In this document: piece after piece, positions 20,330 to 44,285 of the stretch
Layout: the number at the start of each line of letters is the position of its first letter
Position numbering within the stretch: position 1 is the stretch's first letter
Origin: Amyloporia xantha
Lineage: Eukaryota > Basidiomycota > Agaricomycetes > Polyporales > Adustoporiaceae
Length of the DNA: 64,000 nt
Assembly: GCA_036971615.1 (NCBI GenBank)
Contig: JAYKKR010000034.1
Location: 279,120 to 343,119, forward strand
Direction of reading: 5' to 3'
Program-made: the position numbers and the translations under genes
The notes under the pieces: generated by a model
Told to the model about the DNA's origin: nothing
What the model saw: the letters and a program-made list of their open reading frames with translations, nothing else
The model's database searches: none

Positions 20330-20590
20330 CACACGAAAGATGTTGGTGGCCGCAATGCCCCTTGAATGGCCGATTCACGGCTGCGACCACGTAATCAGCT
20401 AAGATTAGGATTGTCTACGCCGATCCAATCCTGTCATAGATAACTTAGCTGTCGCATTGCAATGCTGAGCTTATGAGCAAGAATAGGTATGTGTCTCGAA
20501 TCTGGGTACTAGGCTGTCATTCTTCGTATGAAATACGTCAGTCGTGATCAATAATGTCAAGAAAGAAATCAGGGTAGCAATTAACAGATA

Positions 20591-21782
20591 TCAGACCCCA
20601 TCTCCGACGCTTCGCACGGATTTGGCATCAAGGTTAGACTGACTTGCGCTCTCCGCACGCTCGACATCCGCCTCGATCCGCCCACGCACGGTACGCAGCG
20701 CAAGTGCCGACATGGTTTCCAGCGCCTGATCCCTGGACCACGCCCGCCCCTGGACCACACGCAATACGATCATCTGCGGGGAAACACACTATCACGAGGC
20801 ACCCGTCAACCTAACGCACGCCGCGCCCGACCAGACTGGGACTCACCGTGAACATCGCATACAGGCCTCCAAAGAAGATCTGGATGTCGCTCTCCAAACC
20901 GTACGAGACGAGCCACGCGATGCCCGCTGTGGAATAGGGCAGCGCCGACTCGACGATGATACTGATATACTTGTGCAGGCTGCTCTTCTTCTGGGGCACA
21001 TACACGGCTTTGCTGAGGTAGATGATCCGGCCGAGAATCAGACAGGTGAGGATGATGTTCAGGCCGATGGTAAGAGAGTAGTACGAGAGGCCGAATTTGA
21101 CGGACAGCCCGCTGAAGAAATCGGCGCTGGGTGATCCCGAGGAGTACAGGAGCAAGATGCTAAGAGCTGCAAGAGGTGAAATCAAGTCAACAGAGCTGCT
21201 CACAATGACGAGAAGTAATCAAGCTGACACTTACCGAGGGTGGCAACGTAGATGATACAGGGGAAGATGATAATCCGCATATCATTCCACACGACATGGC
21301 ATCGATAGATCTACGCACGGATGAAGTTGTGTACCTCTTACTCGAATATCACTCAGTTTAGCCTTACCATATACGCGTCCGCGAAGAGATTCAGCATGAC
21401 AGTCGCCGTCGTACCCATAGTCTGGTACCACACTGCCGCATAGTCTGCTAGGTAAGCCGCTGACCCACCAGGATAGTCGGCGTTGACGATCCACATCTCC
21501 TCCCCAAATACCCCTTGAACCGCAACGTAAATCGTGATGAGGACAAGCAGCGCTATGCTGAAGAACGCAAGGAAATTGTCGTATCGTGACCGTTTGCGAC
21601 CACTCTCTGAATCAAACAGTCGTGACATGGTCATGCAGAACAGTACTAGCTCGACACCTGAGAAACGACCGCATTATGAGCCATTTTGGCTGGTCGTAAA
21701 CTCTACCCACTACGTGCTCACCGTATAGGATGTCATTGAAGTTGTTGCTAATATAGAATGCGTTTTGGAAGAGGGATGACAT
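20591..21782 (-). CDS. Seven-helix fungal membrane protein, copy A
   Basis: About 314 aa, five exons like its mirror copy at 41503. It begins MSSLFQNAFYISNN. It has about seven hydrophobic segments, for example NFLAFFSIALLVLITIYVAV, IIIFPCIIYVATLA, YSLTIGLNIILTCLILG and a helix around YSTAGIAWLVSYGL. Between predicted helices 2 and 3 lies GEEMWIVNADYPGGSAAYL, shared with the B paralogue and therefore probably functional (extracellular or lumenal loop). The C-terminal tail is hydrophilic and acidic. This receptor-like family is common in Agaricomycetes and I know no function for it. The last exon starts at 20788 after a 3' splice site and ends at TCA (TGA) 20591-20593. Divergent from copy B. 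Confidence 0.8.
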
Positions 21783-23258
21783 GACGATGTGAAGCGACGG
21801 CAGAGAGACCCGCGAACGTAGAGAGGAAGCGGCAGAGACAAGAGCCCGATGATACCTGAAGGCACGGGCACTGTTCGGCCCGCTGTTATGTCCATGTGAA
21901 ATGAGCTGGCCTTCCAGAGCGTTTGAGGGTTATCTATCTGGGGATCAGGTTAGCATGTGTACGCGTCTACGGTTGCCGCAGAGTGTCTTTTCAGTTGCCG
22001 CTCTCAGATATCTTCTTTGACGGCGTCCGTTGGCTACGCTTCTGTGGCCATACCCTCTGCCCTCCGTTTGCTGTGAGAAATACCGGTCGTGGATCGACCC
22101 GAAATGATTGACAAAGAGGATGTCTGCAATATGACAGCTGTTGTGGATGGTATGCCATAGTTGTCACGGTATTCGGGTTTTATTGCTTACTGTGATGTGG
22201 TGTGGCAAAACACGCCAGATCAGTACCAGAGTGAATGGAACCAAGTCATGGATGATAAACAGATGTACGGAACAAGGGACCTTTATAAGCCAAAGATAGG
22301 GAGGCGACAGCGGCGCTCATAGAGCTCCTGACTGTATAAGGTAGACAAGGGAGCTGATACGACCCTATACGACCACTCAAACACTAAATGAGCGCCTCGA
22401 CGTATCACGTGAATGGATCTCAATAGCGATCTTGCTCAAAGTTCAATCTCGATTTAGAATCGGCGCTCGTTGAGCCCCAACTCGGAAGTCCTGAGTCGTG
22501 CACTAGCATAAGAGAGCAGTTCGTCAAACCTTGCTCTCATAGCTGGCGTGTTTCATATTGAATTTCGTGGTATATTATGGTGGACCACGTCACCCACAGA
22601 GGGCGACAAGAGCTCACACTGATGAACACGATTCTGTGCGTTTGATCAACTAGTATCAATGGGAGATGTACTGACATTTTCCCGCTCTGCGCACGGGAAA
22701 AATCCTGCTAAGTATTCCACTATAATTTTCCACCATCAACATGACCATACCCAATCCAAACTGGTTTGGTGCTTGCCCCTCTGAGTTGACGCGCATCTCA
22801 GGCTCTTCGAAGTGTTCTCCTGTCGTTGCCACTGGTTTCCAGCAACCAGCTTCTGGAGTTCCTAGGAATGCGGCTTTATATGTATCACTCGTTTAATTTC
22901 TGCTGTGGTTGATCGTACTTAACGCGGTTTTGAAATCTTGTCCTCGGCGTCATGATAACAAAGCGTCACTCAGTATGCTCATTTTCGGCGGCAGGAGTTC
23001 TGTGCGATGTCGAAGTATGATGGTAGATAAGTAGCCCCTGACGTGAGACCTATCGGTGTTCCCTTCAACAATCCGCGTAACTTGCATTGCCATCGATCGC
23101 GGCGGCGTGTATTAATCGAGACCGCCTCTCTGAACCTATGCCACTCTTCTAGTCCCGCGTTGAAGCAGCTTCTTTGGGGCAGACAAGCTCGAGGTGCGAG
23201 TCGTGAAGTATATTGCTCCCGGCGGCATCCACTCATTGGTTGCGATTACAGCAACACC
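21783..23258. promoter_or_regulatory. Shared upstream region of divergent seven-helix genes A and B
   Basis: About 1.5 kb between two head-to-head genes, with no supported gene inside. Its counterpart in the right arm (40007-41502) is recognisably similar, for instance around 22440-22560. It must contain the promoters of both genes. Confidence 0.5.
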
Positions 23259-24483
23259 ATGTCTTCCCTCTTTCAGAATGCATACTACGTTGGCAACAGC
23301 ATCAGCGGAATATTGTACGGTGAGTAGCACGCGCTATACGCACGCTCTAATGCCCCGAACTCCGCTTACCCTACTCGTGACAGGCATGGAGCTTATATTA
23401 TATGGCTTGACTATGCATACGTTGTTGAAGAACAGGAGGAAACTCACCCGATCCGACAAATTCTTCATTTTCCTGAGCACGGCGATGCTCTTCCTCATCA
23501 CCATATTCTTCTCCACTGAAGTGGTCTTCGGCGAAGAAATGTGGATCGTTAACGCAGACTACCCTGGCGGTTCTGCGGCTTATCTCGGGGAATACGCTTC
23601 TGTGTGGTACCAGACTATGGGCACGACCTCATCGATCGCACTCAACTTGTTGGCCGATGCGCTCATGGTGAGATACACTTTCCTGCAGAACAATGTCTCG
23701 GACTGCGCTGAACTTTGCCCAGATATATCGTTGCTATATCGTATACAACAATTATCACATCGTCATAGTTCCTTGTATAATCTATCTTGCCTCCGCAGGT
23801 ACGTCGTCGTGTCTCACGGAGTGCCAGTGTGACACCAGCGCAATCTCTGACCTGCCCGTCCCAGCCTTCGGGATCATTCTTCTCTGCGTGTCCGGCGCAC
23901 CCAACGGCAACTTCTTCGTCGGCTTCTCAGAGAAGGCCGGCATATGCTACTACTCGACCACCATCGGCCTGAACGTGATCACGACATGTCTGATCTGCGC
24001 GCGGATCCTCTTCTTCTCGCGGCGCATGAGCAAGGAGCTCGACCGCAGCGCGTCCCGTCCTTACACCAACGCAGCCGCGCTGCTCATCGAGTCCGCGCTG
24101 CCTTACAGTCTTTTCGGCATCGCCTTTCTGGTGAGCTTCGGCCTGGATAACGACATGGAGATTCTCTTCGGGTCCCTGTACAGTATGTTCACGGTACGTG
24201 GACGATCCCTTACCCGTAGCACTCACGTGTGTCAGCGCGTGCTTATGCTCAGCCCGTGAAAACGCAGTGCATATCCCCTCAATTACTCATTCTGCGCGTC
24301 GTCGCAGGCAGGGCGTGGACGAAGCGGCAGACGGAAGGCAGCGTCGTTTCCAGCACCATGTTTGGCCATGGCTCGGGTCCCATGTCCCGGTATGCAGGCG
24401 CCAACAGCAACGGCACTGCGATTAGTCTGCAGCTGCAGACCATCTCCAAGTCGGATGTGGCGTCCCAGATTGACAAGGCGTGA
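23259..24483 (+). CDS. Seven-helix fungal membrane protein, copy B
   Basis: 321 aa from exons 23259-23319, 23384-23667, 23723-23798, 23865-24193 and 24268-24483. It starts MSSLFQNAYYVGNSISGILY. Hydrophobic helices include FIFLSTAMLFLITIFF, IVIVPCIIYLASAAFGIILL, TIGLNVITTCLICARIL and a segment at YSLFGIAFLVSFGL. The loop GEEMWIVNADYPGGSAAYL and the following VWYQTMGTT are nearly identical to paralogue A although the rest has diverged. The tail (QLQTISKSDVASQIDK) is hydrophilic. All junctions are standard GT..AG and keep frame. Function unknown; architecture resembles a receptor. Its mirror copy at 38785-40006 differs by only a few residues. Confidence 0.85.
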
Positions 24484-25363
24484 TACGCAACGTGGGCTGG
24501 CTGGGAAAGGTGGCCTCACTTTGAGTTTTCAGGTTCGAGGTCCGGCGTAGAGATAAGAATGGACATCGATTCCGGCACCACCCTTGAATCTTCTTCCTTG
24601 TTTTTTGAGATCTTATCCAGGTCAGAGTTCTGCTGATTGGAGCATAGGTCAGGAGGGAGCGTCCAATAGGTGGAATGGCGTGACTGATTCGTAAGAGTTC
24701 CGCAAAGTACGGTATTGACAGATCTGTAACTCTAATTATTACAATCCTCTCTTGGCTGCAGGAGACCATAATGCGGTCAACATAAATGGATGCACAGTTC
24801 CGCAGAAAGGACCAGTACGTGCGATAGGATGCCAGGACGCTCACAAGTTCTGATTCATGACAGAGGCAAGTTGGGATAAGGAGGAGCTACTTGAGACCGC
24901 TCGATTCAATGAAGCCCTCGCACGGTTTCCGATTGGCCGATTTCAACACCACCCGCGACGGCGCCATCCGTAAACTGATCGAAGTTCGGAAACCTAAATG
25001 GAACGTGTCCACAGTGTCCACCCAGATCGAATTATTCTATCACGCAGCGAACTTTAAAGCTTGGTAGCGCTATCTCAGCGGCCCTTTAAGCTCCAGTGTC
25101 CACTTAACCCACGAGTCCGCGCGCTGTCGTGATTTTGGTGTGTCAGTCGTTCGTATCATAGCAAACTTGAACTGTGCACGCGTAGCTAGTGTGTAGTCAA
25201 TCCTATTCTCCGCCGAGAATTATTATACGAGTAAGTAACCGCATCATTGCCAGCATAATTTTGTATGTTTTTTGCCTTCTGACTCCAATCTCCACGATCG
25301 CGGCATAGTCTCAACACTAGCCCTTCACCTTGTTCCGGATATTACGCGGCTACACCTAAACGA
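24484..25363. other. Intergenic between seven-helix B and GNAT
   Basis: No gene is seen. Similar sequence occurs reverse-complemented at 38027-38784, so it belongs to the inverted duplication. It should hold the 3' end of copy B and the promoter of the GNAT gene. Confidence 0.45.
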
Positions 25364-26452
25364 ATGTCAATGGCTTTTCCCGATGTCTCTGTACAGATAG
25401 TCTCGCACCCAGATGGTCAGTTCTGTTCACACAAGAATGTCCCATCTGTGATACTGACCTCGGGACGTCATTACAGAGGCACTGGTTGAAGAAGCAGTCG
25501 ATGTGTTCTCAAAATTGATGCCAGAGGGTGGGTACCATTTCATCTCTTCCCTCTGGAGCCGTCGCGCTGAAGACGGCTTCGCAGACCCTGCAGCTATAGC
25601 GTTAACGGGAGGGAACATCTCCCTGCTTCCGGATCTTGCACGAGCCATGATCAGGCCTCTCGCCTTCATCGCTGGAGACATGTACACCGCGACCGACGAG
25701 AATGGCGCCCTGGTAGGATTCACTCTGTGGACTCCTCCCGGCCAGGTCCTGTTCGGCACGTGAGTCTTCGCACTGAATTCCTTGATTACGTTGGACATTG
25801 AGCCGTGCAGGGAGGAGCAGCGTCAGCTGGGCTACTTCGACTTCATGAACAAGCTATCCGAGGAAGCCAAAACCTATTATGCGCAAGTGGTCAGTGTGCT
25901 TCTTTTGGACAGCATCACGAACAGGTTTGACGTGAAATTGTCCCCAGCTCGGAAAGGACTTCCCTGCTGTTATTGACGAGTTGACTGGCATTCCTGACGT
26001 GAGTTCATATTCCTCAACAATGCAATTCTGCTTACCGTTTACTACTACACATGTCTTGAAGACGGAATTGAATACGTACTGGTGCGATTTTGCTTTTGTT
26101 AAGGCTGACCACCAAGGAAGGGGTATAGCTAAAGCAATGTTCGCACTGGCCTACGAGAAGGTTAGCACACGCCCACGAGGAGAAGTATCATATTCGGCTT
26201 TCGTGTCGGCTCACATGCATATTTCGCAACAGGCGAAGAAGAATGGGTATACTATGGCGCTCTCCACAACCAACGAGCGCAATGTGAGTAGATAGCCGGA
26301 TGCTTCCCTTGTGATGTCTTATACTTTCGTAGGTCGCCATTTACGAAAGCTTAGACTTCACGCTGAAGGGGTCTAAGGAGATGCCTTCTCCATGGGGCGG
26401 ATGGCCCGCGTATATCTTTGTCAGAGAGACGAAAGAGGATCGGGATTTGTGA
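25364..26452 (+). CDS. GNAT-family N-acetyltransferase, left copy
   Basis: 244 aa from seven exons: 25364-25415, 25477-25759, 25811-25889, 25948-25998, 26062-26160, 26233-26283, 26333-26452. GNAT enzymes move an acetyl group from acetyl-CoA to an amine; the substrate here is unknown. The acetyl-CoA loop (motif A) is ADHQGRGIAKAMF, with Q-x-x-G-x-A spacing at about residues 173-178. The late GNAT strand-helix is VAIYESLDFTLKGSKE. The upstream part (ALVGFTLWTPPGQ) fits the central beta strands. Two in-frame ATGs (25364 and 25370) are possible starts. Fungal homologues of this layout are common and mostly uncharacterised. The mirror copy is at 36946-38026. Confidence 0.85.
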
Positions 26453-26489
26453 TCCCCGGCCTGCCAGAGCGCTAAGGTCTCGTCTTCTT

Positions 26490-26580
26490 GAAAACGCCAC
26501 TATGTTCGATCCACCGAGCTGCGGAGAAGTTGGACTCGGCTGTTTCAAAGGGGTGTCGAAGTATGTCCCCGCCTTGTTCC
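26490..26580 (-). pseudogene. Truncated fragment of a small ORF at the inner edge of the left arm
   Basis: On the minus strand this reads PLKQPSPTSPQLGGSNIVAF, matching the end of the 60 aa frame at 36727-36909 (PFKQPSPTSPQFGGSIIAAF). The N-terminal half and start codon are absent here: similarity stops near 26580-26590. The duplication breakpoint therefore falls inside this ORF. Confidence 0.55.
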
Positions 26581-26590
26581 GACATTTTTC

Positions 26591-27108
26591 CCATGTGCGT
26601 CCACCTCCCCGACGATCTCGCGCCGCGAAATCACACGCTATGGCCCAGAATGCCATCGTTCATGTATGGTACAGTCTTGTTGCAGCCAAAAGGCAGAATA
26701 TCATCCTGACGTGCCGATGTCCAACGTCCCAACCACGACTCGCTGCGAACGCCTGACGGTCACGTCTCTGTAAATTTGGCCTCTTGACTAATCTATACAC
26801 CGAGCAAGATAGTCTGTTCACCGTCTTGGAGTTGCGAAGGTGCAGAGGCGTGAGAAGAGAAAGTTAGTGACACTTTCAACAGAAGCATTTATTGAGAGGA
26901 ACGGTGGAGTATGCCAGGCGGGGAACTCGAGGAAGGGAAAATAGAAGAATAAGACCTCTCCGAAAATCATCGAAAGAGTCGCACAATTACACGCAAATCT
27001 GAATGGGTCAGAGTCGAACCGTTTTGAGCATAGATGAAACCCTGCTTTATCAGCTGCTATACTCATGACGGAAGTGATGGACCCCTCCGTTCCTGTAAAT
27101 CCTCTCAA
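26591..27108. other. Left end of the unique loop, no gene seen
   Basis: Short frames only. This is the first sequence after the left arm without a mirrored counterpart, and it probably includes the 3' UTR of the M20 peptidase gene. Confidence 0.4.
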
Positions 27109-29091
27109 TTACAAAGCACGACCTTCGAATGCCTCCTTAACCTGATGAAATTGATCAGCCTTTACGACACAGAGCCCACCAGAAAGAACGGACCTTCAGG
27201 CGAAATTCCGCATCATCGAGCACGCGAACGCCTGTCGCGGCGAGGGCTTTTGCGACGTTAAGACAGGCTTTATGCGCTGCTACGCTCGCGGCAGATTCAG
27301 CAAAAGCTACGGTGTGGTTCCCTCCATTCGGAATGGTTGGGATGCCTTATTGACAGGTTCAGTGTGCGGTACCCATAACGTTGAATGGTTACCCACCGAA
27401 AGACGGGTGCAAGGCTGGGAGCGCTGCGACAAGATGTCAACAGACGTCAGAAAGAAGTAGAATGATCTTACCATAAGTAACATTTCCCTGCAAGTTGCAT
27501 CATCAAAATTAGATGGGTCGAGCTTATTGTCAATAGGCACTGACGAAGTCTGTAGAAGCACTCCCGATGCCATAGGTGTAGTCCACGGGGCCGTATTTGC
27601 TACGAAAGACGGCTGCAAACTCGTCACCTGGCAGCGAGGGTTATGGCATTAATGAATATTCCCGGAGTTAAAACACACACCTAGTGCCTTGTTTTGTCTG
27701 AGATCGAAGGTCGCACCGCCTTTTGTGACTTCGTGCCTGCACGCAGATGAAATAGCCGCTCCTCTGGTAGCAAATGTGAGTGTTGGACGGCTTGCTACAG
27801 TAACGCAAGCGGGCTTACTCAAAGCATGCAATGACGCGCTTCGTCGACGCGTCCATCTCCACGCGAGACGGTGCACGTACATACCAGCTGTTAACAAAAG
27901 TCAAGCTTATCCTGTTTGCAAGAGGAATAAGACTACATACATCATCTTGGCGTAATCCGGGATGACTTCCAAGTGCCAGTCAGGACCTCCGCGCACATAT
28001 GATGTGAGTTACGACGTACTATTGGGCGTCCAGTCTTTGCCGACGAATATCCCATGAACACGGTGGGTAGGATGCAGCTGCTGGCGCAGCACAGAGATGC
28101 TGTTGTATGCGAGGACGGCCGCATCTACAGCGTTTTGTCCCTCCCAGGGGGATAATGCTGCATGTGCACTGATACAGAAGTCAAATCAATATGATATCAC
28201 TCACAGGATGGGAGAGAGCCATCCTCACGTATGGCCGTGAAACTCTACTTCGAGGACTTGTCTGGCGAGACAGCTGCTCAAACTCGCGGAATGTTTCGGT
28301 CCAGGGGCAGGGTGACACCTATTGAGAAAAGGTAGGTGAAATCGTAGCAAGTCGGGGTCAGGTGCGTCTCGTACATCAAACAGGCTACCATGCCTTCATA
28401 AGCACCTTTTTCCAAGAGGATTGCCTTGCCACCTCCGCCTTCTTCGGCTGCCGGATGATATGTGAGCAAAACGATGATATCGAGCACAACGGAATTACCT
28501 GGGGTTCCGAGAAGTACCACCGTTCCCGGGATGTCGTGCTTCTCTAGCACTGCCTTCACCGCTAGTGCGACGGCGACACCTGCAATTGCGATCAGGTTGT
28601 GACCACATGCATGTCCGATGCCGGGAAGGGCGTCCATCTCAGAATTGACACCGAGGATGGGGCCGCCGGACCCGTGTGTAAATTTGGCTTCCCAAGCAGT
28701 AGGGAGCAAATAATGCTTTGTGACTTGCCACCCTTTCTTCGCCATGAAGTCCGTCAGAACGTCGTGGGTGCGGCTGTATAAAGATCTGATCAAGTAAAAT
28801 ACTGTAAGCAATTGACATACTTACTGTTCCTCCCAGCGAATTTCGGGATGATCTAGAGATATAACCAATATTAAATCTAAACGTGGTCCACATTCAGAGT
28901 ATGAAAACGTTGCTAGACCGACCGTGTATGTCGAGACTGAGCGCCCGTAATTCCTCGTCCAGCGACACGATAGAATTCTCGATAGTCTCGAGTAATTCAG
29001 GCCTGTAAATAGTGTCCCCTGTACTTTGTACGTCCGTCGACGTATCGTCCGGGTGCCATAGTGCATCCGAGATGGCTGGGACTTCGCACAT
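27109..29091 (-). CDS. M20-family metallopeptidase/amidohydrolase (M20D, PM20D2-like)
   Basis: Fourteen exons can be joined without a frame break: 29091-28923, 28852-28825, 28773-28499, 28447-28319, 28256-28229, 28168-28020, 27965-27941, 27887-27819, 27763-27681, 27627-27545, 27487-27472, 27423-27397, 27345-27194, 27141-27109. The product is 421 aa. Zinc-binding motifs are visible: [17 protein letters not shown] (HACGHN at 120-125) and AEEGGGG (158-164). Further family landmarks are [15 protein letters not shown] in the dimerisation domain, [13 protein letters not shown] and [11 protein letters not shown] near the C-terminus. The family cleaves peptide or amide bonds, often of dipeptides or N-acyl amino acids; the substrate here is unknown. 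The start [12 protein letters not shown] was chosen as the first ATG in frame. Divergent from CLF1 with 616 bp between starts. Confidence 0.9.
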
Positions 29092-29706
29092 GGTTGAAAC
29101 GCACGATCGGAAGTTGGCGGTCACCCGAGGGAAATGAGGTTGAAGGCTCACTATGCTAGCTCGAGATGACGCTGTTGACGTGGTCTTACGGTGCTTATCG
29201 TTGTGTAGGGTAACTTATATGCTGAGATTGTCGGGAAACTGTATGATGATGAAGGATGCCGAAGGGACTCCGTGCCTCAGGGATCGCTGAATGAACCTGA
29301 TAAGATAGGTAGTCATTTCAATGATTCTCATAATTGTCACGAAGACAAGTCTACAAGCGTCGTTCAAATAGGTCTATGTGAGCAAGAGGCCCCTGGGGAT
29401 TGTCTTGATTAGAAGACATCAAGCGCAGAACAGACCTCGAATACGTAGAGCATTGATGTAAATACTAGATATAGGTAGGCGCCTGATATTCTTCAGGCAG
29501 TCACGGTAGGTCACGATGGAAAGTCACACATCACGGGGCCAGGCATCGCGAGCGTCTGTTTTCCCCCTGCGCTCATTCAGACCTTTCTAACAGTCTGTTC
29601 AAAGTTCACTCTCGACGGCCGACATCCTTCTTGCACTTGCGTCGAGGTATCCACAAAGAAACCAAAATTGAGTATTTATTTCTAGGGGGAATATTAGCTC
29701 GTAAAC
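29092..29706. promoter_or_regulatory. Bidirectional upstream region, M20 peptidase and CLF1
   Basis: Head-to-head arrangement with no gene inside. It holds the promoters of both genes. Confidence 0.5.
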
Positions 29707-32565
29707 ATGCAGGACGGTCGAGCCCCTCGGTGCGTTGCTTTCCGCAGAGTCTCTCCGTGATTGACCAACACAGAAAATGAGCTAGCATCAAGAATCGCGC
29801 ACCGGCTGCGATTCAGGTACGTGATACGGTGTTTAATACCACAGTCTTTCTCATCGACGCTTTCTCAGGTCACCGCCGAGCAACTACTCCGAGATGTAGA
29901 AATCCAGTCCTTTTTGCTGTGTACGAGTTCTTGACGCAGGATATATAGGCTCAAGAACGTCAAGAGTCGCAATTTCGGGCTCCGAAACAGCGCGTGGAAG
30001 ACTTTGAAGAGCTTCACGAATATCGCGGACGGAAACGGGAGGAGTTTGAGAAGCGCATTAGGCAGACAAGGGGGAACATGTGAGTTCACAGACTAGCTGT
30101 ACCGATGTTTATTTGTACTGACGTAATGTTCTACCTGATAGTAAGGAATGGCTACAATATGCCAATTGGGAGGTACGTAGTAGTGCGCCTAGTATCCTTG
30201 CTACATGATTTCGAGCCACGCATAGGCCAGTCAAGGTGAATACGCCCGCTCGCGGTCGGTCTTCGAGCGTGCGTTGGATGTCGACCCACGGAGTGTGCAA
30301 TTATGGCTCAGCTATACCGAAATGGAGCTCAAGGGCCGCAACGTGCAGCATTCTCGCAACCTATTCGATCGCGCGGTGACATTACTCCCTCGGGTTGACC
30401 AACTATGGTACAAATACGTCTATCTCGAGGAACTACTGCAAAATGTCCCTGGTGCCCGCCAGGTGTTCGAGCGTTGGATGCAGTGGGAGCCGGAAGACAA
30501 GGCGTGGCAGGCGTATATCAAGATGGAGATGCGGTATAATGAGCTAGACCGTGCAAGTGCTATTTATGAACGGTGGATTGCGGTGCGGCCAGAACCGAGA
30601 AATTGGGTGAAGTGGGCGAAGTTTGAGGAGGAACGGGCGCGACTGGACAAGGCAAGGGAGGTCTTCCAGACGGCGCTGGAGTTCTTTGGAGACGGTGAAG
30701 AGGAGGTGGAGAAGGCCCAAGCGGTATTTAGTGCCTTCGCCAAAATGGAAACACGCCTGAAGGAGTTCGAGCGGGCCCGGGTCATCTACAAGGTATGTCG
30801 AGGCATGCTGCATTTTTCCAGCCCTGTCTGAAGGCGTTGCCTCTAGTTTGCGCTGTCTCGTATACCGCGCTCAAAATCCGCTTCATTGTACGCCGCGTAC
30901 ACGAAATTCGAGAAGCAGCACGGTACTCGTACGACCCTTGAATCCACTGTGCTTGGAAAACGACGCATTCAGTATGAAGACGAGCTAACGCATGATGGCC
31001 ACAACTACGACTCTTGGTTTGATTATTCGCGCTTAGAGGAAGGTGCCTTACGAGATGCCCGAGAAGAAGGCGCAACGGCGGATGAGATAGAGAGTGCGAC
31101 TGGACGAGTGCGGGAAGTTTACGAGCGTGCAGTTGCCCATGTCCCTCCAGGTGGACAGAAGAGACATTGGCGGCGGTACATTTTCCTCTGGTTGAATTAT
31201 GCCCTCTTCGAAGAGATCGAGACAAAGGTATGACTTTCCTTCTGATATGACGTGCAGAGAGCTCAAGGAGTTCGATAGGATTATGCCCGAGCGCGACAAG
31301 TATACGAGACGGCCATTCGTGTCGTTCCACACAAACAGTTCACGTTCGCGAAATTGTGGCTCATGTTTGCGAAGTTCGAAATTCGCCGGCTAGACTTGCC
31401 TGCGGCACGCAAGATTTTGGGCGCGGCAATAGGTATGTGCCCGAAGGAAGCATTATTCAAGGGCTACATACAGCTTGAGCTAGACGTGAGTCCTCTGTCT
31501 ATATCTTCATCCTCGTTGCATTCTCATGTAACAATGGTAGCTGCGCGAATTCGATCGGGTTCGAACACTTTACGAAAAATACATTGAGGTGGGTAACAGC
31601 TGCAGTAATTCGTCGTCAATACACTGATCAACGATGATCAGTTTGACCCAAGCAATTCATCAGCATGGGTCAAGTACGCCGAACTCGAAGCTCAGCTAGA
31701 AGACCTCGATCGTACCCGAGCAATCTTCGAACTCGGTGTGACGCAACAACCACTAGCGATGCCCGAGATTCTGTGGAAGGCATACATCGATTTCGAGACC
31801 GAGGAAGGAAACAGGGAGAACGCGCGCGCGCTCTACGAACGGTTGATCGCCCTCAGTGGGCATTGGAAAGTCTGGATATCGTTCGCGGAATTCGAAGCCG
31901 CGGCGATTCCACTTGCGCGATCACTCAGAGAAGAAAGGGAGGATGAAGAGGAAGAGGACGAACTCGTCCCCGGAGATGTCGAGCGTGCAAGGCAGGTCTT
32001 CGAGAGAGGTTACAACGATCTCCGACGACAAGGCTTGAAGAGCGAGGTCAGTATACTTTCAGCCTACTTGGGATAGGTGTCTGATGGTCATTATTCTCGC
32101 TTGCACAGCGGGTAGCGCTTTTGGAGGTCTGGAAAGCGTTCGAGGAGAAGAATGGCAATGCGGAAGATGTGCAGAAGGTGCAGAACAAGATGCCTCTTGT
32201 CAGTCGACGTCGTGTGATGGATCCCGAATCCGGTGGTACGGAAGCAGGTATGTGGTCTCTCTTTGCATTTGTCACGCAGGAGACTGATACATAATATCTG
32301 CCTTATAGTGCTCGACTGGGATATGGTGTTCCCAGACGACGAACAGGAATCCAATCCAGCGTCATTCCAGTTCCTCCAGAGGGCGCATGCATGGCAGAAG
32401 GCCCGGGCTGCGAAAGCCAAAGAAAATCCCCCAGAGGCTAATTCGAATCATGCTGCGGAGAAGTCAAGTGCAGGTCCTTCGAGGGAACGTCGCGCATCTA
32501 TAAATGGACAAGACAGAGACGAGGACGCGAACAGTGATGTTGCAAGTTCGCATGGTGACGACTGA
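29707..32565 (+). CDS. CLF1: Pre-mRNA splicing factor CLF1 (crooked-neck, HAT-repeat protein)
   Basis: Nuclear scaffold protein of the NineTeen complex, needed for spliceosome activation. Twelve exons: 29707-29729, 29786-29816, 29869-29895, 29949-30079, 30142-30172, 30226-30792, 30847-31227, 31279-31485, 31541-31588, 31642-32046, 32109-32247, 32309-32565; 748 aa. The first 23 nt exon supplies MQDGRAPR, which splices to [17 protein letters not shown], the conserved CLF1 N-terminus. An ATG at 29777 is followed by an immediate stop and is not used. Half-a-TPR (HAT) repeats run through most of the protein, for example [39 protein letters not shown] and [20 protein letters not shown]. The last 70 residues are a low-complexity charged tail. 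Length fits the family. Confidence 0.95.
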
Positions 32566-33015: not shown

Positions 33016-34483
33016 TCATGCGAAGAGCTTCAGCCCCACCGAGCGAGACGCCCTCCCCGCCCTCTCCAAGCTCCCGTCCACCAGCTCATGCGCCGGTCGA
33101 TATCGCGGCTCACATTTACACTCATCCGCGATGCACTGCGCCGACGGGTCGACCGGGATCCACTCCAGTCGATCTGGGAGCGCGTTGAAGCCCGACGCGT
33201 CCGCATGGCACGCCATGCTCGGGTCTCCGCGGATGTACTCCAGCGTGTCTGGCAGCGGGTCGCATCCTGTCGCGTCGGCGACGCAGACCGTGCGCGGGTC
33301 TGTCGGTATCACCTCAAACTTGTCCGGAAGGGTTGGTAGAGGGACGGCACCCGGAAGTGATGAGAACCCAGCAGGTGTGGATGCGCGGGGTCTCGAATTG
33401 TCCGGATCTGCTGTTGAAGTCACGGTGGATGTGGAGGCTGAGATGTTTCCCGAGGGGCCAACCTCTATTTGTGATGATAACGGCTGAACGCCAACACTCG
33501 CTGCGCATTTACTGCATATCGGCTGGATGAGCAGCGCTGGGTTCCGGAACGTGTTGTATGTTGACCCTAGGGACGTGTATCTAGACAGACGAACCCTTAG
33601 CATAGGGAAGAATAGCCTTGAACATCAAATACGCACCCCTCGTCATACAAGCTACAATATGGCACATTGAATTTCCGCAGATACTCCCAGACCGCAGCAT
33701 ACGACCAGTTGATGACGGGATTTATTCGCTCAAAGCGGGGCCATCCGGGATCGGTTGGGTTGCGGAACGTCAACGTAGCTGAAATCATGTCGGTCAACTG
33801 AGGCAACGGTTCATTCGGAGAATTCCACGTACCTCCGTCGGGGTCCGATCTACGGGTACCGATCATTATAGCCTCGATATGGGGAAAACGCGCCTTGTAT
33901 GTCTTCAGAGCCCGTTTCATGCCTTCACCTCCTTTTGCCTTCATCTTTGTACTCACGTAGCCATTCTCACTGCTACTCTGTGCAGACGGAGAAGGGGTAG
34001 CAGGCGCGGCTACGGTTTCCACCGGCAGCTCTGTCTCAGGGAGAGGACAGTGAAACAGGTCGAGGTTGTATGTCTTTGCCACTTCGTCAATGAACACCTC
34101 GAGTTGAGGGAATGGAGAAGGCACAGGGATGTAGACGGCAGGTATCGGTCTTGTCGTCGCATTCCGGCGACCGAGCGCTGCGGCGAGTAGGTGCAGCAGC
34201 ACGGTACCTGTGAAGATCTGGTCAGGGCACTACGGACAGTCCTGACATACAGTACTCACAGTCCTTTCCGCCGTTGAAGCTTAGCGACACAGTTTCCACG
34301 CTTCACAAAGCGACAGGCGTCCACATGAGGCAAACACCAATGCAACTGTTGTACTCACCCGAATGTATCGAGCGCATCATCGATAACCTGCAGCGCCTCC
34401 CTGACCGACGGCGAGAGAGGGTCAACGGACGTTCTCAGGCCGTAGACCTGCTCTGCAATCTCCTGGCGATTCACGACGGTCAT
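33016..34483 (-). CDS. FAD1: FAD synthetase (FMN adenylyltransferase)
   Basis: Makes FAD from FMN and ATP; PAPS-reductase-fold nucleotidyltransferase, cytosolic in yeast. Exons 34483-34359, 34300-34260, 34207-33637 and 33580-33016 give 433 aa. The P-loop-like SLSFNGGKDCTVLLHLL lies at about 47-63, built across the 41 nt second exon. IGTRRSDPDGG and INPVINWSYAAVWEYLR are diagnostic for the family, and the end PRYRPAHELVDGSLERAGR matches the conserved C-terminus. Between the core (LGSTYNTFRNPAL) and this end is an insertion of about 130 residues. It is Ser/Thr-rich and then three similar units of the form LPD-x-(FEVI/LEYI/LEWI)-..-DP-..-C-x-AD. This makes the protein longer than yeast Fad1. Confidence 0.93.
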
Positions 34484-36726
34484 GATGCCGGTTTTGAATG
34501 CTATAGCGGGATATGCGCGAGTGTCTGATTCGATCCAATCAGTCGCTGTTCGTTTCGGAAGGTGTTCAGTAAGTCACAGTTTCCCTGAAGTGAGGGTAAG
34601 GATATTGTACAATGGGAGTATAATCCTATGGATATAAGTTAGTGAGTGGTGAATGTTGACCGGAGAAACTGTAAACAGCCCATGAGAGTTTGGCGAAAGT
34701 GACGCTACTCAATTCCACAGGCATTACGTAAACGCCTGCAACTCATCCAGAATCCGCTGTCTTCAAATGTTCAGATTTCAACCTTTTTTATTATTATGTT
34801 TAATGTTCTCGATACCCAGTTGGCGAGCACTGTGCGTGTTAATCCGACGATTCACAGGCAAAGTGAGTAGCTGTAGAACCGCCATAATCTCATTAGCGCG
34901 CAGAAAATAATAAATCCCCTGTGCTGGCCAGATACGGATACTGCATCCTGAGCTTGAAAGAATTCTATCTACTATTCTGCTCGCATGAGAATACCATGCA
35001 GTAGCACTTGGGCCTTTCCTGTGCCGACACAGCCGTTCTACTATCAGTGGCCCTGCAATGCAATCGCAACAGTAGTGCAATTTTGCGTTTTGAGCACCTT
35101 TCCGTTCCCCAAATATTCTGATATTTATGATCAAGACTCTTTTATGCATTATTTCAAATCCTGTCTACTCAGATTCTGCAAAGCGGAAGCGGTAAGAGAA
35201 TGAAAAATCGCAAACCGACAGATCACAGGATTTGCAACACGGATTGAGCTCGGCAGTCTCTCGATCCACTTTCTTTGGTCCCAAAACTTAGTAGAAGTAT
35301 CTAGTTGCATTATTCTAGCCTATGGTAGTATGCCGGAGATGCGAATGGAATCAGAACCCATACACGAGATGAAAGACGAGCTCCAGAGAGAATGAGCGTG
35401 ACAGATCCGCCACATTCTACTAATTTAGGAATCCCATCACTGCTTTAGCGCGTCGGAGCTCATGCATATTTGGTGGATGCCGTGTCGGTATTCGAATTTG
35501 ATCGTGACAACACCCGTGACTGTCAATTGCATTGCTGTTGCGACTCTAGTTCACCCTCGGTATCGTTCCTCACAACATGTACCACGCCTGTAAAATCTCA
35601 GGGGATACATTCGAACCATGGCTTGCCGTTAGACAAAACTCCGAAAGGTTCCGGGATGTAGCTGAGGAAGGGGCAGGGAATCCGTGAAAAAGTTGCATTA
35701 GAGGGCCACTGATAGTATCGGTGATATGATTAATGATTAATGAAGATGCCTTAAGCTCCTTTCCACGCAACCCCCCCCTGATCCTGGAGGGAGTACATAA
35801 GACATTGGGCATATCCGTGTCCACTAGTGCTGCATTCTCACGTTTTCTTGTCTAATGCCTCATATGTTAGCGGCTCACCACGGACTATACTCAGGCTCCA
35901 GGAAAACTTCTTCGAAAGTTGAGGGGATTGGAACCCGCGTGAAGGCCGCCTTTCTCAGGCCGCCCGGTTCACAATGCTGTCGGACTTTTAGGGCCAGAGC
36001 CCAACGACTGGCTCAGATGTGAGTCCAAGTTCTGACGTTCATTCCAAAACCTGACTCCTGGGGTGTAAAACAGCGCTATAGCCTATTAGTGCCCCTCACA
36101 GATACAATCTCGGTATGTCAAAGTCGAACTCACTAATTTGCAGTGGAACGCCAGTATAGTGACAATCTCACGCCGTGCAACATATGGGGCTAACTGAGAG
36201 CTGATACTGGTACGTACTGTGCATGATACACCCCAGCCGTGCAATAAGATTGATACGGTGACATGGGACAACGTGTTCTTCGTCCGGCCACGGCCACGAC
36301 CATACGGTTGAATGATCAAACTGGCTATAGTCAAACATTGTGATGCGTTGCGTTCACATAAGTATGTGGAAAGGTGTCTAAATTTATCCAATGCGTCAGC
36401 CAGAACCAGGAATAGGACAGCAGTACCTATTTTCTTCGCACCTTAAAAGCTAATAGCAAGTCCCGATCATCCGCTGGCACTTCTATGAAAGTCTCAGGAA
36501 CGTCAGGAATCCACGAGCTTGAGACCGTCCGTGTTGTTGGTCTACTAGTTGTGACCAGTGACGAGCTGAGATTGCATGTTGGATAACGTTACTAGTAGTG
36601 CGGATACCATCCGTGATATTACTACCTCGAGCGCTCTTTGACGCATTCCACTTAATCCCATGATTACAGAGCTAGGACACGTTATCGACCAGGTTCGCTG
36701 ATATGTCGTAATGCTAATCTCATGGA
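34484..36726. other. Long intergenic stretch, no gene seen
   Basis: About 2.2 kb with only short frames on both strands and no similarity I recognise. It includes the FAD1 promoter at its left end and unique DNA up to the right arm of the inverted duplication. Confidence 0.4.
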
Positions 36727-36909
36727 ATGCCAGGCAATCAGTTCACTATCACCGCGAAGATCCCACGATTGAGCCTAAGTTTGTACCCTGCGAACGTCGA
36801 ACTCAATCCAAACGTCGGAACGAGGCGGGGACCACACTTCGATATTCCTTTCAAGCAGCCGAGTCCAACTTCTCCGCAGTTCGGTGGATCGATCATAGCA
36901 GCGTTTTAA
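36727..36909 (+). CDS. Small conserved ORF at inner edge of right arm
   Basis: Sixty codons, starting MPGNQFTITAKIPRLSLSLY and ending GGSIIAAF. The C-terminal half is duplicated in the left arm (26490-26580) while the N-terminal half is not, so the copy here looks like the complete one. It is convergent with the GNAT gene at 36946. Function unknown. It could be the last exon of a longer gene, but I see no upstream exon. Confidence 0.4.
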   Translation: MPGNQFTITAKIPRLSLSLYPANVELNPNVGTRRGPHFDIPFKQPSPTSPQFGGSIIAAF

Positions 36910-36945
36910 CGACGACTAGACTTCAGCGCTCTGGCAGGCCGGGGA

Positions 36946-38026
36946 TCACAAGTCCCGATCCTCTTTCGTCTCTCTGACAAAGACATACGTGGGCCATCCG
37001 CCCCATGGAGAAGGCATCTCCTTAGACCCCTTCAGCGTGAAGCCTAAGCTCTCGTAGATGGCGACCTACGAAAGTATGAGACATCGCAAGGCAAGCATCT
37101 GGCTATCTACTCACATTGCGCTCGTTGGTTGTGGAGAGCGCCATAGTGTACCCATTTTTCTTTGCCTGTTGCGAAATATACATGTGAGCCGACACGAAAG
37201 CCGAATGTGATACTTCCCCTCGTGGGCGTGTGCTAACCTTCTCGTGGGCCAGTGCAAACATCGCTTTAGCTATACCCCTTCCTTGGTAGTCAGCTCTGAC
37301 AAAATTAAAATCGCACCAGTACGTATTCAATTCAGTCTTCAAGATATGTGACAGTAAAATGTAAGCAGGATTGCATTAGTTAAGAATGTAAACTCACGTC
37401 AGGAATGCCAGTAAACTCGTCAGTGACAGCAGGAAGGTCTTTTCCGAGCTGAAGACCGTTTCACATCAAACTTGACGCTGTCCGAAGAAAGAAGTACACT
37501 GACCACTTGCGCGTAGTAGGTTTGGGCTTCCTCGGATAGCTTGTTCATGAAATCGAAGTAGCCCAGCTGACGCTGATCCTCCCTGCACGGCTCCATGCCT
37601 ACTAACGTAATCAAGGAATACAGTGGGAAGACTCACGTGCCAAATAGAACCTGGCCAGAAGGAGTCCAAAGTGTGAACCCGACCAGGACGCCATTCTCGT
37701 CGGTGGCGGTGTACATGTCTCCAGCGATGAAGGCGAGGGGCCTGATCATGGATCGTGCAAGATCCGGGAGCAGGGAGATGTTCCCTCCCGTTAACGCTAT
37801 AACTGCACGGCCTGCGAAGCTGTCTTTAGCGCGACAACTCCAGAGGGGCGATATGAAATGGTACCCACTCTCTGGCATTAGTTTTGAGAACACATCGACT
37901 GCTTCTTCAACCAGTGCCTCTGTAATAACGCACTGAAGTCAGTATTGCAGATGGGGCATTCTTGCGCGAACAGAACTGACCATCTGGGTGCGAGACTAAC
38001 TGTATAGAGACGTCGGGGAACGCCAT
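36946..38026 (-). CDS. GNAT-family N-acetyltransferase, right copy
   Basis: Mirror paralogue of the gene at 25364-26452 with the same seven-exon layout and intact splice sites. It starts MAFPDVSIQLVSHPD at 38026 and ends with TGA at 36946-36948. The acetyl-CoA motif is ADYQGRGIAKAMF and the C-terminal strand VAIYESLGFTLKGSKE. Amino-acid changes against the left copy are scattered, for example SGYHF for GGYHF and TPSGQ for TPPGQ. No stop or frameshift is seen, so both copies look functional. Substrate unknown. Confidence 0.85.
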
Positions 38027-38784
38027 TGGCAATCGTCACGGTGCAGGTGCGCAGTGACAATCGGAAGAAGGGTGAAGGTGTGCAGGCCAATGGCGCTTGC
38101 TAGTGACTGCGCCGCAGCCGTGGTGATCGCAGTCTGGAGGTAAGAAGCACAAAATCGTTGTAATGATGATGATGCCGCTTAGTACTTACCTGTGTAATCG
38201 GTTTGAATGCGCTTCCTATTCGTACACAAATCAAGTTTGCTATGGCACAAACAACGACACATCACAGTCACGACAGCGCGCGGGCTCGTGGGATAAGTGG
38301 GCACTGGAGCTTAAAGGGCCGCTGGGATAGCGCTGCCAAGCTTTAAAGTTTGCTGCGTAATGGAATATTGATGATTTGATCTCGTGGACACACTGTAGAC
38401 ACGTTCCATTCATTTAAGTTTCCGAGCTTCGATCAGTTTACAGATGGCGCCGTCGCGAGTGGTATTGAAATCAGTCAATCAGAAACTGTGCGAGGGCTGC
38501 ATTGCATCGAGCGATCCCAAGTAGCTCCTCCTAATCCCAACTTGCTTCCGTCATGAATCAGAGCTTGTGAGTGTCCTGGCATTGCGCACGTACTGATCAT
38601 TTCGGCCGAACTCTGTATCCATTTATGCTAACCACATTATGGTCTCCTGCAGCCAAGAGGCAATTGGATAAGATCGCAAGATTCAAGGGGGATGCCGGAA
38701 CCGATGCCCATTCCTTAGCTCTACGCCGGACCAACCTGAACCCTCAAATCGAGACCACTATTTCCAACCAGCCCACATCATGTA
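38027..38784. other. Intergenic between GNAT right copy and seven-helix B'
   Basis: No gene is seen. Counterpart of 24484-25363 in reverse orientation, somewhat shorter because of indels. Confidence 0.45.
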
Positions 38785-40006
38785 TTACGTCTTGTCAATC
38801 TGGGAGGCCACATCCGACTTGGAGATGGTCTGCAGCTGCAGACTAATCGCAGTGCCGTCGCTGATGTTGGCGCCTGCATACCGGCGACCCGACCCATGGC
38901 CAAACATGGTGCTGGAGACGATGCTGCCTTCCGTCTGCCGCTTGGTCCATGCCCTGCCTGCGACGACGCGCAGAATGAGCAATTGGGGGGATATGCACTG
39001 CGTTTTCACGGGCTGAACATGAGCGCGCACTGGCATACGTGAGTGCTATGGGTAAGAAACCGTCCACGCACCGTGAACATACTGTACAGGGACCCGAAGA
39101 GAATCTCCATGTCGTTATCGAGGCCGAAGCTCACTAGGAAGGCGATGCCGAAAAGACTGTAGGGCAGCGCGGACTCGATGAGCAGCGCGGCTGCGTTTGT
39201 GTAAGGACGGGACGCGCTGCGGTCGAGCTCCTTGCTCATGCGCCGCGAGAAGAAGAGGATCCGCGCGCAGATCAGACATGTCGTGATCACGTTCAGGCCG
39301 ATGGTGGTCGAGTAGTAGCATATGCCGGCTTTCTCTGAGAAGCCGACGAAGAAGTTGCCGTTGGGTGCGCCGGACACGCAGAGAAGAATGATCCCGAAGG
39401 CTGGGACGGGCAGGTCAGAGATTGCGCTGGTGTCACACTGGCACTCCGTGAGACACGACGACGTACCTGCGGAGGCAAGATAGATTATACAAGGAACTAT
39501 GACGATGTGATAATTGTTGTATACGATGTGACAGCGGTATATCTGGGCAAAATTCAGCGCAGTCCGAGACATTGTTCTGCAGGAAAGTGTATCTCACCAT
39601 GAGCGCATCGGCCAACAAGTTGAGTGCGATCGATGAGGTCGTGCCCATAGTCTGGTACCACACAGAAGCGTATTCCCCGAGATAAGCCGCAGAACCGCCA
39701 GGGTAGTCTGCGTTAACGATCCACATTTCTTCGCCGAAGACCACCTCAGTGGAGAAAAATATGGTGATGAGGAAGAGCATCGCCGTGCTCAGGAAAGTGA
39801 AGAACTTGTCGGATCGAGTGAGTTTCCTCCTGTTCTTCAACAACGTATGCATAGTCAAGCCATACAATATAAGCTCCATGCCTATCGCGAGCAGGGTGAG
39901 CGGATTTCGGAGCATCAAAGCGAGTCTACTGTGCCTGCTACTCACCATACAATATTCCGCTGATGCTGTTGCCGACGTAGTACGCATTCTGAAAGAGGGA
40001 AGACAT
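38785..40006 (-). CDS. Seven-helix fungal membrane protein, copy B'
   Basis: Mirror copy of the gene at 23259-24483 with the same five-exon structure. It begins MSSLFQNAYYVGNSISG at 40006 and ends ASQIDKT at 38787-38785. It differs from copy B at few positions, for example FFTFLS for FFIFLS, and a small in-frame indel in the tail (GSGRRYAGANISDG for GSGPMSRYAGANSNG). The signature loop GEEMWIVNADYPGGSAAYL is unchanged. No inactivating change is seen. Function unknown. Confidence 0.85.
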
Positions 40007-41502
40007 GGTGTTGCTGTAATCGCAACCAATGAGTGGATGCCGCCAGTATCAGTACCATTAACGGTTCGCACCTCGAGCTTGTTTGCGCCAGAGAAGCTAG
40101 AAGAGCCTGAGTGGCATAAGTGCAGAGGCCGTCTCGATTAATATGCGACGCCACGATCAATGTAAGGAATGCGAATTGTTGCAGAGAATCCAGATCGGTC
40201 TCACGTCAATGGCCAGCTATCTACCATCATACTTAGAGACCCTGCCGCCGGAAATAAACCTATCAAGGAACACCGTGGTATCATAGCGCCGAGTACACAA
40301 TTTATCACAGCGTCAAGTGCTATCGACCACAGAGTCGAGAGTCAGAGAAGAATTAGATAGGAAGCTGCCTCTTGGGAACTAAAACAGCTGGTTGCTAGCA
40401 TTAGTGGCAGCGACAGGCGAATGCTTCCGAGAGATGCACAGAAACTTGGAGTGGCAAACACCGAACCGGTCTGGATAGGATACGGTGTCATATTGCTGGT
40501 GTTGACATAGAGTGAAATACCCAGCGGGTCAGAGATGTTGCCAGCCTAAGTGGGCAGAGCGCGACCATGTTAGCATGTCTCCCGTTGATAGTACTTTATC
40601 AAACGCACAAAATCGCTTCCTGTGAGCGAGTGTCATCCTTGTTGGCTCTCGCGGCCCATCATCACATACCGCGAAATTCAATCTGAAACACGCCTGCTAT
40701 AAGAGCAAGGTTTGACGCACTGCCCTCTTATGCCAGTGCAGGACTTCCGAGTTGTGGCTTCTGACAACAACGAGGCTGAGCGCCGATTCCAAATCGAGAT
40801 TGAACTTTGAGCAAGATCCCTGTGGAGATTCATTCACGTGAGACGTCGAGGCGCTCATTTGGTGCTCGGGTGGTCCGAGTCGGATGAGCATCCTTCTCTA
40901 CCTTATACAATCCGGAGCTGCTACCTGTTTGGCCTATCAATGACTCTTTCTCCGTACATTTGATAGGCATCTATGACTTGTATGGCGGCGGTGGCATTGA
41001 TAGCACCGGCTTTGCCACTCCACATGTGCTCCAGTATCTTACCATGGACCAGATACTTTAACCAGCATTCGAACTCTATTCATGGTGATGAACAAGTCCG
41101 CGCCTGTCGTAGGTCACCGGCCTGGAGATCCGCGAAGAATAATCAGCAATAAATCCTGGATACCGTGACAACTCTGGCATTCCCTTCATGCATGCATGGC
41201 AGCTGTGATGCTGTAGACATCCCCTTTGTCGTTTCTAGGAAATCATCTCGAATGGAGCCGCCATGTATCCAACGGACGCCGTCAAAGAAGATCCCCGAAA
41301 CAGCTCGGCAGCAACCGTGAACGTGTACACATGCTAACTTGGTCCCGGCGAGATGACCTCAAAATGCTCTGTCAGGTCAGCTCGAACTCCACGGACATCA
41401 TTGCGGGTCAAGAGTGCTCTCGCCTTCACATATCATCGGGCTCTTGTCTCTGCCGCTTTCTTTCTAACTTCACACGTCTCTCTGCTATCGCTTCACACCA
41501 TC
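40007..41502. promoter_or_regulatory. Shared upstream region of divergent seven-helix genes B' and A'
   Basis: Counterpart of 21783-23258 in reverse orientation; no gene inside. Intergenic conservation between arms is clear around 40680-40810. Confidence 0.5.
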
Positions 41503-42673
41503 ATGTCCTCACTCTTCCAAAACGCATTCTATATCAGCAACAACTTCAATGACATCCTATACGGTGAGCACGTAGTGGGTAGATTTTACGACCAGTCAAA
41601 AAGGCTCATCATGTGGTTGTTTCTCAGGTGTCGAGCTAGTACTATTCTGCATGACCATGTCACGATTGTTTGATTCAGAGAGTGGTCGGAAGCGGTCACG
41701 ATACGACAATTTCCTTGCGTTCTTCAGCATAGCGCTGCTAGTCCTTAACACAATTTACGTTGCTGTGCAAGGAGTCTTTGGAGAGGAGATGTGGATCGTC
41801 AACGCCGACTATCCTGGCGGGTCAGCGGCTTACCTAGCAGAGTATGCGGCAGTGTGGTACCAGACTATGGGCACGACGGCAACGGTCATGCTGAATCTCT
41901 TCGCAGACGCATATATGGTAAGCTGAGTGATGTTCGAGTAACAGGTACACAACTTCATCCGTGCGTAGATCTATCGATGCCATGTCGTGTGGAACGATGT
42001 GCGGATTATCATCTTCCCCTGTATCATCTACGTCGCTACCCTCGGTAAGTCTCAGCTTAATCATGCCTCGTCGATGCGAGCAACTGTCTTCGCAGCTCTA
42101 GGCATCCTGCTCCTGTACTCCTCGGGCTCGCCCAGCGCCGATTTCTTCAGCGGGCTGTCCGTCAAATTTGGCCTCTCATACTACTCTCTTACCATCGGTC
42201 TGAACATCATCCTGACCTGTCTGATTCTCGGCCGGATCATCTACCTCAGCAAAGCCGTGTATGTGCCCCAGAAGAAGAGCAGCCTGCACAAGTATATCAG
42301 TATCATCGTCGAGTCGGCGCTGCCCTACTCGGTGGCGGGCATCGCGTGGCTCGTCTCGTACGGTTTGGAGAGCGACATCCAGATCTTCTTTGGAGGCCTG
42401 TATGCGATGTTCACCGTACGGGATTTCTCCTCAGCCATGATTTACATAATAACTGACAGACCTGTCTTGTGGCAGTGTGTTTCCCCGCAGATGATCGTGT
42501 TGCGTGTGGTTCAGGGGCGGGCGTGGTCCAGGGATCAGGCACTGGAAACCATGTCAGCACTTGCTCTGCGCACGGTTCGTGGGAGGACGGAGGTTGATGT
42601 CGAGCGTGCGGAGAGCGCAAATCAGTCTAACCTTGATGCCAAATCCGTGCAAACCGTCGGAGATGAGGTATAA
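41503..42673 (+). CDS. Seven-helix fungal membrane protein, copy A'
   Basis: 314 aa from exons 41503-41563, 41628-41917, 41969-42044, 42096-42415 and 42476-42673. It begins MSSLFQNAFYISNNFNDILY. Helices are visible at NFLAFFSIALLVLNTIYVAV, IIIFPCIIYVATLALGILLL, TIGLNIILTCLILGRIIYL and a segment at YSVAGIAWLVSYGL. The loop GEEMWIVNADYPGGSAAYL is conserved. It is the mirror copy of 20591-21782 with few substitutions (for example AEYAAVW for ADYAAVW). All splice junctions are canonical. It lies head-to-head with copy B', as A does with B. Confidence 0.85.
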
Positions 42674-44285
42674 TATCTGTCAATGCCCGGAGTTCTTCCT
42701 AGACGTTCTTGCTCATGAGTCATGACTCACGTATTTTATACGAATAATGACAACCTTGTACCCGGACCTCGAGACACATGCCGATTTCTGCTCATGAGCT
42801 CAGGAACGCGACAGGGGAGGTATCTATGACAGGAGTGGGTCGTCGTAGACGATCCTAGTCTTCTCTGACTACGCCGTAGAGCATAACGGTCGCAGCCGTG
42901 AATCGGCCATTCAGGGGGCATTGTGGCCACCAACATCGTTTCGTATCCGGGTAAGAGCAGACCGGATGCGCTTTGCATGTCCAGGACAGAGAGTGGCGTG
43001 ACTGATGTCATGCAAATGCGTGGCACATTTGACAATGGGAGGGACCATGACTACGCACTGCGCCTCAACAAAAATGAATAGCAGGAGAAATCTGGAGAAT
43101 TACTCCATGATGATGCATGCCTCGCTTTCTACTTAGGTTCAATTTCAACAAAAATGCTACCTTACCTGAGTCTTACCTCAGGCTATTCTCCTTCCTGCAT
43201 CGTTTTATTGAAGTCGTAAGCACCCTTGAATGGCCACCTGCGTAATTCAACGAGTTCTGAGATGGAGCCTCCGAGTGATTCGTGTCGACGACAAATTTTA
43301 GCAACTTACGTCAGGCTGACGATGATCGTGTTCGATGCGGAAGAGCGTCACCAAGCTAGCTGTGCCTTCTGCTCCAGCATGCGCACAACTGGTACTCGCT
43401 CATAGTCAGGGCAGTCAAAAAACAAGAGTGAGCGAGAGAGGTGGCAGAAGTGAAAAAGGAGCCAGAGATGAGCCCACGCTGACGAAAATATTTGACATTG
43501 GCTGCTTGACTATAGCTACAGCCTGAGCAACCAGCTGATACAAATGTGGATGTAAGACGAAAGCTATCCCCAAGGAAGTGGTGAAACATAACAGGGATGT
43601 AAACTGCACATCACCCACTCGAGCCCGTCATAGCTACCAGGCTTGCTCGCAGATTACGGGTCCACGGCTATCAATAATATGTTTGATGGACTGCACTTGA
43701 ACTAGCTGTCATGACCGATCGAATAAATTGCGAAAATGCTGAGATAGATGTTATGAACTAGAAATACAGTATATGAAGTCCGAAGATCCTCCAATTATCG
43801 TAGTTCTTGGTGTCAAGACACTACGTACAGCCGAATAACAGATAGATACGAAAATAGAACGCGAGACATGAACCATCGTCAAGACTGTCATGGTGCCAAT
43901 TGAGCACCGAGGAGTCCTCTAGTATTTAGCTGGCGGCGAGGAAGCGCTAGAGGCCCTTCATGAGCCCGGTGGGGGCTGCACATTACCAGCTCGTAGGCAG
44001 TGGCTTTTAGACAGCCTCGTGACCAGTCTTCGACCTAGATCGGCATCGGGGAAGCGCATCGTTCTTCGACCAATCCAGAGCCATGGCTTGTACCGTCCGT
44101 CTCGACGGGTGAGTGTTGAATTCGAGACCTCGATCGAGACTTGAGATGCCTAGCTCCAAGTGGACACGACATGGAGGTACAAGGAATGGTCTGATGCAAG
44201 TGATGGAATACAGAGATGGCGGTAAATAAGAATAAATACGAGGGCATCTTGGCGACTTGAAGAAAGCACGGGAGGCCGAATTTAA
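42674..44285. other. Intergenic, no gene seen
   Basis: The first 260 bp are the outer end of the right arm. The remainder carries only short frames without similarity. Confidence 0.4.

Follow-up and report, generated by a model that had tools for sequence, protein, structure and literature searches.

The window analysed here is a stretch of 64,000 nucleotides from a contig (C28) of a 46.8 Mb genome assembled in 60 contigs, and its right edge is the end of that contig. Self-blastn of the 64-kb window returns two inverted arms as three collinear blocks, all with E=0, which pair 20333-22037 with 41265-42944 (84.15% identity), 22323-24592 with 38678-40919 (84.30%) and 24749-26587 with 36810-38659 (84.34%). 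From these blocks the left arm runs from 20333 to 26587 (+ strand, approximately 6.26 kb) and the right arm from 36810 to 42944 (− strand, approximately 6.14 kb), with a loop of 10,222 bp between them (26588-36809). The gene order is A(−) B(+) GNAT(+), loop, GNAT(−) B(−) A(+), and the original prediction of mirrored three-gene arms of about 6 kb is borne out by an 84% alignment around a 10.2 kb loop. Introns and intergenic DNA were also said to match between the arms; they do, but unevenly, the intron distance between arms ranging from 0 to 0.58. Opposite orientation and matching noncoding DNA mark the arms as an inverted segmental duplication.

Genes A and B encode seven-helix (7TM) receptor-like proteins and each has five exons in the spliced models. 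In the left arm gene A lies at 20591-21782 (−, 309 aa) and gene B at 23259-24483 (+, 321 aa), with their right-arm counterparts at 41503-42673 (+) and 38785-40006 (−) respectively. A and B lie side by side, transcribed away from each other, and are paralogous (74% over 179 bp in self-blastn). The acetyltransferase gene GNAT has seven exons and lies at 25364-26452 (+, 244 aa) in the left arm and 36946-38032 (−) in the right; its PF00583 domain (E 2.4e-7 for the left copy) scores 31.4 bits against a cut-off of 20.7. All six copies had been called intact, and their frames are indeed open and spliceable, provided that the right GNAT, which has lost its first ATG, starts at the next methionine two codons on. 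When the second contig described below is included, a single terminal stop and GT-AG introns are found in 12/12 spliced models (three genes, two arms, two contigs). Between the arms of one contig dN/dS is 0.04-0.07 for A and B, with dS of 0.25-0.28 for A and 0.12-0.14 for B. For GNAT the two contigs give dN/dS values of 0.20 (C28) and 0.52 (the second contig, C41), with dS of 0.25 and 0.11 respectively; this is weak evidence of constraint, as conversion distorts the ratio. A further 7TM paralog occurs twice on contig C15, at 235006-235344 (−) and 673057-673395 (+), with equal scores, 438 kb apart and in opposite orientation.

Relatives of the 7TM proteins were found, among the best 120 of 164 hits, in species that we assign to the orders Polyporales, Russulales and Boletales. 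In seven of the eleven species with both 7TM and GNAT relatives among the matches listed, the two lie on contigs of equal length, which in this count only substitutes for a shared contig; in the other four the lengths differ. In Grifola and Trametes pubescens the 7TM and GNAT relatives have neighbouring locus tags. These observations suggest that A/B and GNAT form a conserved linked module in several other Agaricomycetes. In trees, for which 58 of 164 7TM hits and 24 of 27 GNAT hits were used, the four copies of the type seen in the window (from C28 and C41) are monophyletic for each gene, with support of 100/100 for A, 100/99 for B and 99/99 for GNAT. The A clade is sister to a Wolfiporia protein, the B clade falls, with moderate support, close to a different protein encoded on a Wolfiporia contig of equal length, and the GNAT clade is sister to Rhodonia/Postia (95/94). 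These placements make the A/B pair old and date the left/right duplication to after the split from Wolfiporia and Rhodonia.

The A/B family of proteins has no name. In two models of A/B relatives the predicted fold was closest to yeast Ste2 (VIA-align), for which several entries are deposited; one of these appears among the best 50 matches listed in one comparison and three in the other. With Foldseek nothing matched the first model at E <= 0.001, the best hit (2e-3) being a viral chemokine receptor, and Ste2 was absent from the best 50 matches listed. Sequence kinship to Ste2 was not found, the family profile scoring 0.2% probability against Ste2 and 0.4% against a rhodopsin control. A Pfam STE2 search of the organism's own genome gave no match, its 14 controls being likewise silent, a sequence search of the PDB with the family profile gave 0 hits, and gene B has no match in Pfam or NCBIfam. 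The family resembles the DUF6534 group of GPCR-like proteins, which are described in the available part of the source as seven-helix proteins of Agaricomycotina abundant in Polyporales (PMC12842992). Unlike that group, 0 of 41 scanned A/B family members, and neither A nor B, match DUF6534 in Pfam scans. Two recent reports place Ste2-type (class D) receptors in no group other than Ascomycota (PMC12842992, PMC13308352). For this receptor-like family, which seems to travel with an acetyltransferase gene in several Agaricomycetes, Ste2 may be the nearest solved fold.

The loop was originally described as holding CLF1, FAD1 and an M20 peptidase. CLF1 is supported by exons with HAT repeats at 30226-32565 (+), the gene start lying further upstream, and an exon at 33600-34229 (−) fits FAD1 through a PAPS_reduct match (PF01507, E 3.1e-17). 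The M20 peptidase is weak, as the possible exon at 28281-28820 (−) matches PF01546 with E 0.0025, below the Pfam cut-off. Among named species in the best 120 of 3674 matches, CLF1 is closest to Rhodonia placenta (92%), Fibroporia radiculosa (91%) and Laetiporus (89%), which we take to be brown-rot Polyporales, and the host lineage is therefore probably a brown-rot polypore. The view that a loop of essential genes is a meaningful part of the system did not hold: in 0/22 species for which both were among the matches listed did the contig of CLF1 agree in length with that of a module gene, equal length again standing in for the same contig and many contigs being short. This count drew on the best 120 of 164 7TM hits and the best 120 of 3674 CLF1 hits (7989 candidates scored), with the rows for at least two species, Dichomitus and Taiwanofungus, coming from differently named strains or assemblies, and with Fibroporia (which has no module gene among the matches listed) and metagenome rows omitted. 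The loop genes look incidental and appear to take no part. The region was also considered as the B (pheromone/receptor) mating-type locus and rejected, since STE3 matches fall 24/24 on contigs C3 and C58, and 0 on C28, C41 and C19.

The left arm has matches on two other contigs: C41 covers the full arm at 96%, and the tip of C19 covers 5.5 kb of the 6.3 kb at 99%. C41 repeats the C28 arrangement, with two arms and a loop whose order and orientation are unchanged. On C41 an insertion of 14.7 kb (C41:195240-209971) that falls at window 19916-19922 shows a 7-bp target duplication and contains matches to Plavaka transposase, as well as a segment that matches domains 5 and 6 of RNA polymerase Rpb1. 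A second insertion, of 1.1 kb at window ~32850 in the loop, has ends that resemble each other and is marked by an 8-bp target duplication; C28 lacks it. Because it carries insertions of its own with target duplications, C41 is a version in its own right. C19 shows 0 mismatches to C28 over approximately 23.0-38.0 kb of the window and hardly a mismatch to C41 from approximately 41 kb onward, with a mixed zone between the two parts; the last 1.8 kb, up to the end of the contig, agree with neither C28 nor C41. This partial third copy looks like an assembler phase switch between two haplotypes, and for that reason a third haplotype was not retained as the reading of C19. The fungal kinase block beside the right arm (window 43183-47154) also has copies on C19, at C19:582749-586713 and C19:596672-600809; the block is 91.1% identical to the inverted C19 copy and 87.6% to the collinear one. 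At window 54380-61228, C19 has the inverted kinase-block copy instead.

With four arms in hand we compared site patterns inside the arms. Of 5896 ungapped columns, 601 separate left from right, seven pair the arms by contig and seven pair them crosswise; therefore the left/right divergence predates the split of C28 and C41. Private changes number 55 and 40 in the left arms and 140 and 101 in the right arms. Four of the seven crosswise columns cluster at 24067-24145, a cluster taken from a wider alignment (877/7/7 of 6398 columns) that includes a few hundred nonhomologous bases outside the arms. The right-arm copies also group in the GNAT tree (100/98). Wholesale homogenisation of the arms since the C28/C41 split has not happened, and with this many columns separating the arms the locus is no palindrome maintained by conversion along its full arms.

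Short tracts of approximately 60-310 bp are unusually alike between arms, and these are best explained by gene conversion. The suggestion that the arms exchange sequence in this way is thereby supported by column permutation, as short patches. Such local tracts are runs of agreement whose length was reached in almost none of 10,000 shuffles of 969 polymorphic columns (906 with noncoding and third positions only), a test that assumes exchangeable columns, an assumption violated by uneven constraint, and whose p values are uncorrected across the four pairings. In B, candidate patches lie at 23521-23712 between the C28 arms (p 1e-4) and at 23714-23934 between the C41 left and C28 right arms (p 3e-4); all patch positions are in left-arm coordinates. 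In exons 2-3 of GNAT there are candidates at 25659-25794 (C28 left with C41 right, p 1e-4) and 25705-25764 (C41 arms, p 3e-4) and a weaker one at 25766-25843 (C41 arms, p 0.01), from which we infer that the right arm of C41 took left-type sequence. A candidate of 255 bp at 26153-26407, in GNAT exons 5-7, joins both left arms with the C41 right arm (p 1e-4). A weaker tract at 20935-21047 has p 0.002, or 0.05 with silent columns only. The longest exact match between arms is 197 bp on C28 and 255 bp on C41, the latter lending support to the candidate at 26153-26407, and in introns 2 and 3 of B only 1 of 121 sites differs between the C28 arms.

Near-identical patches could instead reflect purifying selection and variation in mutation rate, with no conversion at all. 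Several patches do lie in conserved transmembrane exons, and the permutation takes no account of uneven constraint. However, introns within patches are near identical, against differences of up to 25% (B) and 33% (GNAT) elsewhere, a comparison that is circular in that the patches were picked for low divergence. In addition, introns 5 and 6 of GNAT are identical between the C41 arms but different between the C28 arms, which constraint alone does not predict, and the B tree groups C28 left with C41 right (99/88), discordant with arm. We therefore consider an account without conversion to be rather unlikely, and favour ectopic gene conversion over short stretches as the probable process between the arms.

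The most likely relation between C28 and C41 is that they are alleles of two nuclei. Allelism is reached by inference, because the comparisons made showed no common sequence to the left of window position 18365. These differing flanks would suit two copies of the whole region at different chromosomal places, as would the result that 8 kb samples from C12, C28 and C19 have no second full-length copy, by which much of the assembly may be single. On the other hand, a sampled stretch of C41 has a 99% copy on C50, so that leftover second-haplotype contigs probably exist; another C41 stretch proved to be a repeated element present at many places. Where the two loops align, their DNA is 98-99% identical and some stretches show 0 mismatches, though approximately 670 bp at window 35042-35714 fails to align, and the run of C19 along C28 and then C41 almost without mismatch is as expected of a phase switch. 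Two nonallelic copies are accordingly improbable in our view.

A further possibility is that recombination between the arms flips the 10 kb loop repeatedly, a live switch that would change the context of its genes. The inverted geometry would allow this, and the longest exact matches, 197 and 255 bp, are a possible substrate. However, C28 and C41 are collinear through the loop and the near flank on either side, and no inversion was seen among these two complete assembled copies, a very small sample that consists of contigs rather than reads; flips in even number, or in other isolates, would not show in it. Crosswise columns in a block are the trace expected of a flip whose exchange fell inside an arm, and only the seven in 5896 noted above were found; the arms are moreover just 84% alike overall. 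The claim that the arms could flip the loop is not supported, and an active switch is very unlikely. An assembly artefact is scarcely credible: three contigs do break in or beside the region (the C19 tip, C28 end and C41 end), but two diverged contigs carry the full structure, one with transposon insertions absent from the other, and arms that are 16% diverged are unlikely to have had their reads confused.

Taken as a whole, we read the locus as an old inverted segmental duplication of the A, B and GNAT block with short ectopic conversion between its arms, and give this reading a probability of roughly 0.8. A second copy of the block would have landed inverted, with the loop genes lying between the two landing sites. 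It is possible, but doubtful, that A and B are mushroom receptors of the Ste2-type (class D) fold, linked with GNAT, and that the inverted copies serve as a store in which receptor sequence is reshuffled by short patches. The locus is a clean natural case from a mushroom: the inverted duplication is old, two diverged versions of it are available, and one assembly displays left-right divergence, patchy conversion and the absence of inversion together.

It had been suggested that no locus of this kind is described in mushrooms. None was found in the literature searched, but the type of structure is known elsewhere. In Hansenula polymorpha a segment between two mating-type loci inverts, according to the available part of that report (PMC4238957); the likeness is of a fungal chromosomal segment, and here, by contrast, no flip was seen and no mating-type genes were found at the locus. 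The nearest basidiomycete parallel, so far as the accessible sections of the source extend, is provided by the opposed pheromone gene copies of the Cryptococcus P/R locus, for which the authors propose inversion loops and mutual repair by conversion (PMC12510652). The P/R genes are mating-type genes linked to rearrangements, whereas here no rearrangement was seen and the arms carry no STE3 receptor. The palindromes of ape sex chromosomes have, in the excerpts at hand, inverted gene-bearing arms with conversion between them, as here, but they are kept by conversion (PMC11168930, PMC6790999), whereas most of the arm described here has diverged. In the portion of the account available for human GSTT2 (PMC3375281), the duplication is 29 kb with arms 99.4% alike, compared with 84%, a 10 kb loop and patchy conversion here; in both cases duplicated genes stand inverted and conversion passes between the copies.
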